Positions 25,993-54,225 of a stretch of 64,000 bases of DNA are shown one piece after another (positions within the stretch are counted from its first letter, which is position 1; each line of letters opens with the position of its first letter). Both the position numbers and the translations under genes were made by a program. The stretch is from Viridothelium virens. Taxonomy: Eukaryota; Ascomycota; Dothideomycetes; Trypetheliales; Trypetheliaceae. The DNA is taken from assembly GCA_010094025.1 (NCBI GenBank), contig ML991796.1:1-64000 (forward strand). Reading direction: 5' to 3'. Under the pieces are notes generated by a model that saw only the letters and a program-made list of their open reading frames with translations, did not search any database and was not told the origin of the DNA.

Positions 25993-26019
25993 AGTCGCTT
26001 AGCTCAGCTGGTTTAGAGC

Positions 26020-26066
26020 GTGAGTACCAGGAGATCTTTTCTTTAGGCAAATCTAACATCTTATAG
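26020..26066 (+). other. GT-AG intron-like insertion A in tRNA-Ile
   Basis: 47 nt between tRNA positions 25 and 26: donor GTGAGT, branch-like TCTAAC 14 nt before the end, acceptor TTATAG. All three match the consensus of protein-gene introns in this window. Confidence 0.75.
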
Positions 26067-26095
26067 GTGGTGCTAATAATAACTGTGACGCCAAG

Positions 26096-26148
26096 GTGAT
26101 TCTCCTCCCAAACTATCCCTTAAAAACGCACTCCTAATTCTATAGAAG
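26096..26148 (+). other. GT-AG intron-like insertion B in tRNA-Ile
   Basis: 53 nt inside the variable loop: donor GTGATT, branch-like CCTAAT, acceptor GAAG. AAGGT is repeated at both edges, so the boundary could be placed a few bases differently; the placement given restores the normal AGGTC variable loop. Confidence 0.65.
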
Positions 26149-26188
26149 GTCGCGAGTTCGATCCTCGTAGTGACTACACAACCATTTC

Positions 26189-26193
26189 TTTTT
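26189..26193 (+). terminator. Pol III terminator of tRNA-Ile (T5)
   Basis: Five T residues begin 13 nt after the mature 3' end, the standard RNA polymerase III stop signal. Confidence 0.65.
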
Positions 26194-26468: not shown

Positions 26469-26594
26469 CTCCGAGTCGGGGAATCGAACCCCGGTCTCCC
26501 GCGCTTGACAATGACAAGCGGAAACTATACGAATTAGCGATGAATACATTAGAGTGTTGGAAGCGCTCACTCATGACCACTAGACCAACTCGGA
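26469..26594 (-). tRNA. tRNA-Asp (GUC) gene with two introns, one of them mRNA-like
   Basis: Read on the minus strand. Acceptor TCCGAGT (26594-26588) pairs with ACTCGGA (26476-26470), discriminator G26469. The D arm is GTC/GAT, the anticodon stem TCCGC/GCGGG, the loop TTGTCA...C (anticodon GUC), the T arm CGGGG-TTCGATT-CCCCG. Two interruptions: 26570-26525 (46 nt, GTGAGC...GCTAAT...TATAG) between positions 24 and 25, and 26511-26504 (8 nt) at the canonical 37/38 site. Taking both out leaves a complete 72-nt tRNA-Asp with fungal-type sequence. The T10 terminator follows at once. The gene converges with tRNA-Ile, their 3' ends 292 bp apart. Confidence 0.87.
26525..26570 (-). other. GT-AG intron-like insertion in tRNA-Asp
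   Basis: 46 nt: donor GTGAGC, branch-like CGCTAAT, acceptor GTATAG, spacing from branch to acceptor about 8 nt. It lies just after the A box, almost the same place as insertion A of tRNA-Ile. Confidence 0.8.
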
Positions 26595-27496
26595 CAACTT
26601 AAATGGCGAACCATCTAGAAAATATTATATAATGTAATAACTGATTCCAAGCACTAAGCCTTAACCCTCCCTCAATTACATTGCCCACAACTTTTTCTGA
26701 CACTCGGTTTTTATTTTTTGTATCTATCATCAGTCTACAAACAAATACTCGCGCTCGACTCTGGGTTTAAGGTATAATATTCAATACCTCTCTATTGATG
26801 GCGGCTCTTTTTGTCTATATCAACGCAGCTAACTCATGGATTGACCGTCGAGTCCAAAAAAATCCAAGCGCTCTCATAACATTCTCAGAACAAAGAATAG
26901 ATCTCTCATTTCGTTGACGTGGAAATCTGTCAATTTGTTCCGTATTTAGTGCTCCAGAGCCACTGCGTGTAGTTTGCCGCAACTTTGAATTGCTTAAAAC
27001 TTGCAAGACCCCGATATTAGACCTTGAGAAATTGCGACGAAAATCTCAGCAGTACGAATTGATCTTGTGAAGGCTTCAAAAATCGAGGATAGGAATGAGA
27101 TCGTTAATCTGGGAAAGCATTGGGCAGAGTGCCTAAAGTATGCTGTGAGTCATTGAAATGTTGAAAACTTGATAGAGACATGCAGAAGTATTGTATGAAC
27201 GCTTGCTTTCTAGCTTGACTTGTACGCATCATTTGAAATAAACCAATGTACCTTCTCACTGTTGTCATATGTCATATGTCTAAAAACTACAAGTTTGTCC
27301 ACTAGCATTGTCGCTATAACTCTGAGTGTCTCACTTCACCCTCCACCGATACCGCTAAAGCAGACCAATTGATATACCACGCCTACAGCCTCCTGATCGC
27401 ATGATATGATTTTCTAGGAGCAGCACGTGATAACTCGGTATTCTTAGAAGATCTAAGAAGTCTATCCTCTAATGTTTGTTTTGACCCATCAATCAA
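26595..27496. other. Intergenic, no supported gene
   Basis: No frame longer than 65 codons and no repeat stands out. It includes the upstream region of tRNA-Asp. Confidence 0.5.
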
Positions 27497-51669: not shown

Positions 51670-51837
51670 TCCGGGGCGTTGCGGGCCTTCAATTCCTGTG
51701 TGGATTGACGGGGTAGTGGTGGAAGAAAGATTTCAGGGACCAGATATCTTGCATAACTGCATAAGCAGCACAAATTAGTGCATATTTATACCAAAGTCTC
51801 TTCCGTCAACCTTATCATCTACTCCGCAAACGCTGCG
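51670..51837. promoter_or_regulatory. Shared promoter region of MIC27 and OCT1
   Basis: Only 168 bp separate the start codons of two divergent genes for mitochondrial proteins, so both core promoters must lie here. I see no strong TATA box on either strand. Confidence 0.6.
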
Positions 51838-54225
51838 ATGCTAAAGAGGCTCCAACGTCCTGCTTGGATTTGTACAAGATGCCTCAAAACCCAGCAGAAA
51901 CGATGCAAAATCGGTGTTGTAGAAGCTGCTGCAACTGCGCAGAGACTCCTTGTTCCCTTTGCCAATCATTCGTCGCCCAACGCCTCCAACGATGATCGTA
52001 CGCTACGAATGATATTCGATTCGCAACCCTTTTGGAAAGAATTTTCACAGCGAACGAGGTTACAGAATGTCAAGAGCAAGGGTCTCTTCCAGAATAGATA
52101 TCTCACGCGGCCTGAAGGATTCCAAGAGTTCGCAGCAAATACGTTGCAAAAATGCAGAAGAATCGTTGCCAAGGTTCTGGCAGCGTCAACAGCAGACGAC
52201 TTCAAGAACATGTCAAGAAACTTGGACAGACTTAGTGACTTGCTTTGTCGAGTAATAGACTTGTCGGATTTTGTACGATCAACGCATCCAGATCCAAGGA
52301 TACAGGCTGCAGCCTCGCAGGCATATGGACAAATGTTTGAATATATGAACGTTTTGAATACTACAACTGGACTTAATGACCAATTGAAGAAGGCAATGTC
52401 GATGCCTGAGGTGACACAGTCATGGACTGGGGAGGAAAATATTGTCGCGCAAATTTTGGCAAAGGACTTCTCCAGATCTGCAATCGATCTTCCTGAGAGC
52501 TCACGGCAGAAGTTCGTAGAGCTATCTAGCGAAATTGCTGAAGTCGGTACCGAATTTGTTGACAGCATGGCTCCTGCGAAATCTTATCTCGATTTTCCAA
52601 GTAGCAGACTGAAAGGCATGGATCCGACTGTGGTCAGGCAGTTGACGAAATGGGGTACGGTCACTCTTCCCACAGTTGGTACCCCTGCTACTATGGCATT
52701 GAGGAATGTTGAAGATCCCGATGCTCGGCGAGAGATTTATATGGCAAGTAGGACAGCCTCGAAAGGATCAATAGCTCAAATGGAAAAGCTCGTGAAGACG
52801 AGAGCAGAGCTTGCGCACGTATCCGGCTACGATACCTTTGCACACATGGCTCTCTCAGACAAAATGGCAAAGACTCCTGATGCTGTCAATCGCTTCCTTG
52901 AAGCACTTGTAGCTGACAATCGTCCGCGCGTAAAAGAAGAACTATTGGATTTGCTTGAGCTCAAAAAAGCTGATGCACACAACAACAATTTCCCAACCGA
53001 GCTTAATGCTTGGGACCGTGATTACTACAAGACTCAACTACTGTCCAGTCTCCGCTCAAAGGCTCGCACGCCCGACCGGCTTTCTGCCTACTTCTCCTTG
53101 GGTACTGTTATGCAAGGACTGTCCCGTCTCTTCTATCGTGTCTATGGCATTCGGCTTGTACCCCACGAAACTCCTCCCGGAGAGACCTGGAATGACGACG
53201 TCCGCCGCCTTGATGTCATCGACGAAAACGATGGCCATATCGCGGTGGTCTACTGTGATCTATTCGCTCGGCCAGGCAAAGCTCCCAACCCGGCCCACTT
53301 CACTCTTCGCTGCTCCCGCCTCATCTCCACTTCCGAAATCGACGAATCATCTCCACCACCCGCTCCCTTCTCCTCTCCCGCCGAAGCCGCCAACGACGGG
53401 ATGGCCACCACGGTAGACCGCCACACCGGCTCCCTCTACCAACTCCCCACCATCGCGCTCATCTGCGACTTCCAAACCCACTCACTCTCCTCCGCCCTAT
53501 TCTCCTCCGGCTTCTCTCCCGCGAACCCCCGACCGACCCTCCTCACCTTCACCGAAGTCCGCACCCTCTTCCACGAAATGGGCCACGCGCTGCACTCCAT
53601 CCTGGGCCGGACGACGCTACAAAACGTGTCCGGCACGCGGTGCGCCACCGACTTTGCCGAGCTGCCCTCGATCCTCATGGAGAACTTCGCCACGGCGCCA
53701 CAGTCCCTCGCGCTGTTCGCGCGGCATTGGGAGACCGACGCGGAGCTGCCGTACGCGCTGGTCGAGGACCGGCTGCGGGTGGAGAAGCGCATGGAGGCGG
53801 CGGAGACGGAGGCCCAGATTGTGCTCGCGGCTCTGGATCAGGCGTACCATGGGGTCGGGAGGGTTGGCGACGGCTGGGATTCGACGAGGGTGTATCTTGA
53901 TGTGGTGAATCGGTGGGCGTCGGTGCCGGAGCCGCAGGGGACGGCGTGGCAGGGGTTCTTTGGCCATTTGTTTGGGTATGGGGCGACGTATTATGCATAC
54001 TTGTTTGATCGCGCGATTGCGGGACGGGTGTGGCAGGAGGTGTTTGGGGCGGGAGAAAAGGCGGTGGAGAGGAGTGCGGGTCAGAGGATGAGGGAGGAGG
54101 TGTTGATGTGGGGTGGAGGCCGCGATGGGTGGAGGTGTGTTGCGGGTGTTTTGGGACGTCCTGAGTTGGCCGAGGGAGGAGAGGCCGCGATGGAAGAGGT
54201 GGGAAGGTGGGGAGTCGAGGATTAA
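51838..54225 (+). CDS. OCT1: Mitochondrial intermediate peptidase (M3A metallopeptidase, 795 aa)
   Basis: Removes an N-terminal octapeptide from precursors already cut by the matrix processing peptidase. The ATG at 51838 begins MLKRLQRPAWICTRCL, an Arg/Lys-rich presequence. The M3 fold follows (FDSQPFWKEF, GLFQNRYLTRPEGF, AHVSGYDTFAHMALSDKM, FSLGTVMQGLSRLFYRVYGI). The zinc site HEMGH is at residues 579-583 within TLFHEMGHALHS, and the third ligand lies in DFAELPSILMENFA. GYGATYYAYLFDRAIA near the end is the substrate-binding C-terminal motif. Length fits fungal OCT1 (about 780-810). There is no intron. From about 53300 on, codon third positions become strongly C/G-rich, a shift within the gene. 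It shares an upstream region with MIC27. Confidence 0.93.
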   Translation: MLKRLQRPAWICTRCLKTQQKRCKIGVVEAAATAQRLLVPFANHSSPNASNDDRTLRMIFDSQPFWKEFSQRTRLQNVKSKGLFQNRYLTRPEGFQEFAANTLQKCRRIVAKVLAASTADDFKNMSRNLDRLSDLLCRVIDLSDFVRSTHPDPRIQAAASQAYGQMFEYMNVLNTTTGLNDQLKKAMSMPEVTQSWTGEENIVAQILAKDFSRSAIDLPESSRQKFVELSSEIAEVGTEFVDSMAPAKSYLDFPSSRLKGMDPTVVRQLTKWGTVTLPTVGTPATMALRNVEDPDARREIYMASRTASKGSIAQMEKLVKTRAELAHVSGYDTFAHMALSDKMAKTPDAVNRFLEALVADNRPRVKEELLDLLELKKADAHNNNFPTELNAWDRDYYKTQLLSSLRSKARTPDRLSAYFSLGTVMQGLSRLFYRVYGIRLVPHETPPGETWNDDVRRLDVIDENDGHIAVVYCDLFARPGKAPNPAHFTLRCSRLISTSEIDESSPPPAPFSSPAEAANDGMATTVDRHTGSLYQLPTIALICDFQTHSLSSALFSSGFSPANPRPTLLTFTEVRTLFHEMGHALHSILGRTTLQNVSGTRCATDFAELPSILMENFATAPQSLALFARHWETDAELPYALVEDRLRVEKRMEAAETEAQIVLAALDQAYHGVGRVGDGWDSTRVYLDVVNRWASVPEPQGTAWQGFFGHLFGYGATYYAYLFDRAIAGRVWQEVFGAGEKAVERSAGQRMREEVLMWGGGRDGWRCVAGVLGRPELAEGGEAAMEEVGRWGVED

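Follow-up and report, generated by a model that had tools for sequence, protein, structure and literature searches.

The window, that is, the whole 64,000-nucleotide stretch of Viridothelium virens DNA analysed here, belongs to an assembly of 30.7 Mb in 175 contigs and encodes at 51778–54225 a mitochondrial intermediate peptidase, among whose closest named matches are those of Bathelium mastoideum (81%) and Bogoriella megaspora (78%), both lichen-forming Trypetheliaceae (Dothideomycetes). Its forward strand carries a tRNA-Ile(AAU) gene at 25993–26176 (acceptor base 1 to discriminator), recovered by ARAGORN and by a boundary-blind scorer (see below), with a mature length of 75 nt once three introns are removed. 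The first of these (26020–26066, 47 nt, GTGAGT..CTAAC..TTATAG) was delimited by the scorer, by a listing of GT-AG intervals and by its putative branch site CTAAC at 26053–26057, whose branch A at 26056 is followed by a further 10 nt. The second (26096–26148, 53 nt, GTGATT..CTAAT..TATAGAAG) lies in the variable region, was found by ARAGORN, the scorer and the GT-AG listing, and has a putative branch site CTAAT at 26134–26138 (branch A at 26137). Between them ARAGORN places a 9 nt intron at the canonical 37/38 site (26079–26087, ambiguous by 1 nt), and a T run at 26189–26193 is the likely Pol III terminator. Using our own numbering, aligned with eukaryotic tRNA-Ile, we take intron 1 to fall between tRNA positions 25/26 and intron 2 between 45/46.

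The sequence and coordinates reported for this locus in an earlier, sequence-only reading were recovered unchanged when re-read from the window, as was its claim that the intron-free sequence folds into a cloverleaf with every stem paired, U33 and anticodon AAU. With the three introns removed, ARAGORN reports tRNA-Ile(aat) of 75 bases with U33 and a score of 109.4, with acceptor, D, anticodon and T stems of 7, 4, 5 and 5 bp, all but the D stem containing a single G-U pair; the insertion-free sequence is thus recognisable as a tRNA. The RNAfold minimum-energy fold of the same sequence contains the acceptor, anticodon and T helices and lacks the D arm. Intron 2 has two candidate 3' sites, TATAG (TAG at 26145) and the AAG three bases later; ending at AAG gives a normal variable loop of 5 nt and ending at TAG one of 8 nt, with equal ARAGORN scores. 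As placed, its 3' site is not the first AG past the branch, which we count against a spliceosomal reading. Neither ARAGORN at default settings nor Rfam at gathering score reported a tRNA in the window.

A second gene, tRNA-Asp(GUC), lies on the reverse strand at 26469–26594, convergent with the Ile gene and approximately 290 bp from it (scorer, GT-AG listing and BLAST). It contains a 46 nt intron at 26525–26570 (GTGAGC..CTAAT..GTATAG; GT-AG listing and paralogue comparison) and, as read from the sequence, an 8 nt 37/38 intron at 26504–26511 whose position is ambiguous by about a base, while the upstream TATAW search found a TATA-like element at 26625–26631, 35–37 bases upstream of the gene, on the same strand. 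A second Asp gene, on contig C15, is interrupted at the equivalent position by an intron of related sequence, 38 of 51 aligned columns being identical.

ARAGORN with free deletions was too permissive to place introns, and a separate scorer was therefore written, which searches for the highest-scoring cloverleaf after up to two deletions (36–112 nt, one per half), without regard to the bases at their ends. At the Ile locus it gives 2.6 uncut, 30.3 with one deletion and 34.3 with two, and because of this difference the gene was moved by hand to the two-cut group. The best single free deletion there is 79 nt long and not GT-AG; treated as a one-cut gene, the locus reaches 23.4 at best with GT-AG ends against 30.3 with free ends. 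The sets of tied two-deletion solutions (two on the left, six on the right) include GTGAGT..TTATAG (47 nt) and GTGATT..TAGAAG (53 nt).

Loci throughout the genome were collected from T-arm patterns and Rfam tRNA matches, and scoring was applied to 43 nuclear seeds, all having a perfect 5-bp T stem. These comprise 23 tRNA genes that need deletions (19 one, four two), with 27 GT-AG introns in total, 16 tRNA genes that parse uncut, and four sequences that are not tRNAs. Three of the uncut genes are intronless and 13 contain a 37/38-type intron only (L025 being the least certain in our reading of the parses), so that nearly every scored tRNA gene is interrupted in some way; those without a GT-AG intron include L063, L092, L096, L097, L116 and L117. 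The seeds are a non-random sample, as Rfam matches favour uncut genes and entry required an unbroken T arm. Some placements were made by choice: the L095 intron was set at 52 nt against the 83 nt preferred by the scorer, on the strength of its likeness to elongator tRNA-Met, while for L029 47 nt was picked over a tied 45 and for L107 64 nt was picked among four ties. The isotype of L030 is ambiguous.

The counts leave aside 16 loci on contig C129, taken as mitochondrial from its tRNA cluster and size; 12 loci with no perfect 5-bp T stem or T-arm seed (L098, L101–L103, L106, L110–L114, L118 and L119); the Rfam match L024, which has no seed; the Rfam match at C18:372939-373010; 11 further candidate places; and 60 further search matches, except any reached by other searches. 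Among these, L112 (C71:136980-137370) is a possible tRNA with a GTAAGC..CTCAG intron within the acceptor stem and a long insertion by the anticodon, and L106 and L113 have tRNA-like 3' halves that do not parse and are candidate interrupted or decayed tRNA genes.

The intron boundaries were assessed by sorting possible ends into 256 dinucleotide classes and keeping the best score of every class at a locus. Averaged over the 19 one-intron genes, GT-AG comes out highest (32.88), followed by GT-TA (28.48), with the median class at 18.38; in the four two-intron genes, with both cuts held to one class, GT-AG is again highest (mean 34.33, next 23.83). The termini expected of a U2-type intron were thus ranked first without being imposed. 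Counting ties, GT-AG ranks first in 11 of the 19 one-intron genes and in all four two-intron genes (one tied); in the other one-intron genes it ranks second to fourth (six genes), ninth (L107) and eighteenth (L095). Two observations count against the spliceosomal reading here, namely that another class lies 1.0–2.8 bits above GT-AG in eight of the 19 one-intron genes, and that in the two-intron genes L078 and L056 mixed-class free cuts score 1.5–2.0 higher than GT-AG. The shortfalls mostly concern introns in the D arm, where loop length is flexible.

Freedom to delete might turn any DNA into a tRNA, and free-deletion ARAGORN does give numerous spurious parses, one of them a Val(aac) reading of the Ile locus whose score of 115.7 exceeds the 109.4 of the Ile parse. 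We nevertheless find it barely credible that the interrupted genes are chance parses or artefacts of assembly. In 780 decoys, made by joining a real T arm and acceptor to random window DNA, the highest scores are 27.2 (one cut) and 31.4 (two) with free ends and 17.6 (one) and 16.6 (two) with GT-AG ends, where real genes, all at 30 or above, score 30.2–37.5 and 33.2–35.1 respectively. The exons of the Ile gene are moreover close to the conserved eukaryotic tRNA-Ile(AAU), and the same pattern recurs on many contigs.

Splice signals that played no part in choosing the introns agree with the U2-type consensus beyond the GT. Position +5 is G in 24 of the 27 introns and +4 is A in 18, the final three letters are TAG in 17, CAG in seven and AAG in three, and a YTRAY branch site lies 7–35 nt from the intron end in 25, compared with a fraction of 0.33 for shuffled interiors; the two introns in which it is absent are counted against the spliceosomal reading. 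The median length is 51 nt (range 46–99). Both the site within the tRNA and the number of introns vary: Lys(CUU) has an intron in the D stem (GTGAGT..ACTAACTGTAACTAG), the Asn gene has two (GTGAGT..ACTAATGAGTTGTAG and GTAAGT..GACTAATTAACGACAG), as does Gly(UCC) (both GT-AG), Arg(UCU) has an intron in its D loop and another that splits the anticodon after its first letter, the Ser(CGA) intron directly precedes the anticodon, and that of Arg(ACG) precedes U33.

Introns at unusual sites might also be non-canonical tRNA introns, cut by the tRNA endonuclease at a relaxed bulge-helix-bulge (BHB) motif as in Cyanidioschyzon merolae or archaea. Ectopic tRNA introns are described in C. merolae and in Guillardia nucleomorphs (PMC4090602 and PMC3978253, each in part), and archaeal genes may contain several introns, at non-canonical sites that include 25/26 and 45/46 (PMC4090602, in the part covered), a coincidence with the Ile gene that we count against the spliceosomal reading. 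We regard endonuclease cleavage of these introns as quite improbable. The strict 4-bp central helix of the BHB is found at none of the 27 introns; the relaxed central helix is found at one, and with an outer helix at none, compared with 15.6% and 2.4% in shifted controls. Substrates of the endonuclease require no GT, AG, +5G or branch site, and the canonical tRNA intron site, 37/38, is not occupied by any of the 27 introns as placed. With Rfam at gathering score, no family, and hence no group I or group II ribozyme, was matched in the window; introns of 46–99 nt are in any case too short for a group I or II core.

In the window, a handful of likely mRNA introns (55–68 nt) look similar to those in the tRNA genes, for example one of 55 nt (GTAAGC..CTGAC..TGTAG). 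The reading-frame scan of the window from which they come found 204 GT-AG candidates against 332–732 in controls, and 51 against 48–74 when a branch site was required, so that with no excess the scan is no yardstick and the likeness to host mRNA introns rests on few examples. A common, introner-like intron family was also considered and rejected, the best raw similarity between introns of different genes at different sites being 0.70 of aligned columns, in a single pair, and the others listed at most 0.65.

The genes may, alternatively, be in decay, with insertions that are tolerated while intact copies elsewhere serve translation. A candidate case is L114 (C63:130540-130840), a tRNA-Lys(CUU) whose intron, GTAAGT..CTAAC..TAG, is clean and shares its site with that of L031, but whose T loop has a deletion; because of the lost letters this copy may be dead, possibly a recent pseudogene. 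The loci read also cover only part of the genome's tRNA genes, and the BLAST search had gaps: queried with Asp it returned the window copy only and passed over the interrupted C15 gene of the same isotype, showing that diverged interrupted copies can escape detection. The sequence-only reading had named intact tRNA-Ile(AAU) genes elsewhere among the conditions that together would tell against it; searched against the whole assembly, the spliced Ile sequence matches only the two outer parts of its own locus, within a sensitivity that let the C15 Asp gene pass. Besides its own locus the Asn query recovers, at 86%, an intact Lys(UUU) gene, from which we judge that an intact Asn gene of like similarity would probably have been detected.

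Set against decay are the number of interrupted genes, 23 of the 39 scored tRNA genes, and their identity: all genes found for Ile(AAU) (one), Asp (both), Gly(GCC) (both) and Asn (one) are interrupted. The paralogue pairs examined also carry compensatory changes, and no base pair is broken within the parts compared. The Asp paralogues, which share an intron site, have seven differences, of which six make up three compensatory pairs and the seventh lies in a loop; the Gly(GCC) paralogues have five, including one compensatory pair and one T-G to C-G change, with no pair broken, as well as a matched change at two columns that are unpaired in our structure; and between the Lys(CUU) copies a single matched stem change is the sole difference within the first 46 nt. 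Within the same-site pairs (Asp, Gly(GCC) and Lys(CTT)) the introns share site and signals, with ends and branch kept and middles diverged. We therefore consider decay very unlikely as a general account. The interrupted loci have the attributes predicted of functional tRNA genes, as judged from the spliced cloverleaf and from the constraint seen in the Asp, Gly and Lys pairs, to which the Ile gene does not contribute.

Introns in the D loop split the A box, which we again count against the spliceosomal reading. A TATAW element starts 28–46 bases upstream of the mature 5' end in 16 of the 23 interrupted and 12 of the 16 uncut genes (28 of 39), and at 4.9% of sampled window positions; none was found in this interval upstream of the Ile gene. 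TATA-led transcription of tRNA genes is known in some plants and fungi (PMC3978253, in part), and such elements may be how genes with split A boxes stay transcribed here. Transcription of the interrupted genes by Pol III is suggested by their T runs and TATA elements. Matches to U6 (three copies) and 5S (five copies) in the genome are uninterrupted, with U6 matching its model end to end, a result that we likewise count against the spliceosomal reading. The U6 genes at C38:47563-47662 and C116:32817-32916 are followed after 14–29 nt by a B-box-like GTTCRANYC. Yeast U6 likewise has a downstream B box.

Taken together, these observations make it highly probable, in our view, that U2-type spliceosomal introns reside in functional nuclear Pol III tRNA genes, with one or two removed per precursor. 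The sequence-only reading, which had proposed spliceosomal-type introns for a single tRNA gene, is favoured by the evidence and extends to 23 of the 39 nuclear genes scored; the phenomenon is widespread in the genome, and at the level of sequence this interpretation is supported. With so many nuclear tRNA genes carrying mRNA-type introns, the spliceosome probably helps to make the cell's tRNAs. We propose that it would remove the one or two introns of each precursor, much as it does the U6 intron of fission yeast, and that the tRNA endonuclease and ligase would take out the separate short 37/38 intron where present; the part played by the spliceosome, and the order in which the two kinds of intron leave the precursor, are what we infer from the sequences. 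The introns probably arose by gain or reverse splicing followed by inheritance, as has been suggested for other fungal structural RNA genes.

Nuclear tRNA introns are, in the textbook account, removed by endonuclease and ligase. We think it fairly likely, with somewhat less assurance than we attach to the nature of the introns themselves, that the nuclear tRNA repertoire of this lineage now depends on the spliceosome, coupling translation directly to splicing, with TATA elements offsetting the split A boxes. If so, the precursors of Ile, Asn and Arg(UCU) would each depend on the tRNA endonuclease as well as on the spliceosome, one intron would have to be removed from within an anticodon, and for the Ile AUU/AUC, Asp and Asn codon families every gene found would carry spliceosomal introns. 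The supply of particular tRNAs would then be tied to the activity of the spliceosome, which would be seen to process short, tightly folded Pol III precursors, and the lineage would offer a setting for dating and testing intron gain in structural RNAs and reverse splicing. Such genes escape standard tRNA finders, and the tRNA sets of such genomes may therefore be under-counted.

Among the open-access matches listed, in the parts of them covered, there is no report of spliceosomal introns in the tRNA genes of any organism. One review describes non-canonical tRNA introns as supposedly rare in eukaryotes, naming nucleomorphs and C. merolae, and its main text does not contain the term "spliceosom" (PMC4090602). 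C. merolae and the Guillardia nucleomorph resemble the present case in having tRNA introns away from 37/38 and several per gene, but these are ascribed to the splicing endonuclease and BHB motifs or to an unknown mechanism, those of Guillardia are only 3–24 nt long, and no combination of GT-AG ends and branch site is described in the parts of these sources covered (PMC4090602, PMC3978253).

The sequence-only reading had pointed to mRNA-type introns in fungal U6 and rRNA genes as precedents, and both can be traced in the literature, so far as the sections covered go (PMC10484740, PMC11889510). Short spliceosomal introns occur in the rDNA of ascomycetes (Cubero et al. 2000 and Bhattacharya et al. 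2000, cited in PMC11889510), and the U6 gene of fission yeast contains an mRNA-type intron in a Pol III structural RNA, which is spliced and is thought to derive from reverse splicing (PMC10484740). The rDNA introns are likewise short and lie in structural RNA, but in a Pol I rRNA rather than in Pol III tRNAs as here. Many of their hosts are lichenised. Canonical 37/38 introns, which have a fixed site and no splice-site or branch consensus, co-occur with the GT-AG introns in some of the interrupted genes, as with the 9 nt intron of the Ile gene. Whereas the fission yeast U6 intron affects a single gene, whose product is near the catalytic core of the spliceosome, the introns described here interrupt many tRNA genes in a genome whose own U6 is uninterrupted.
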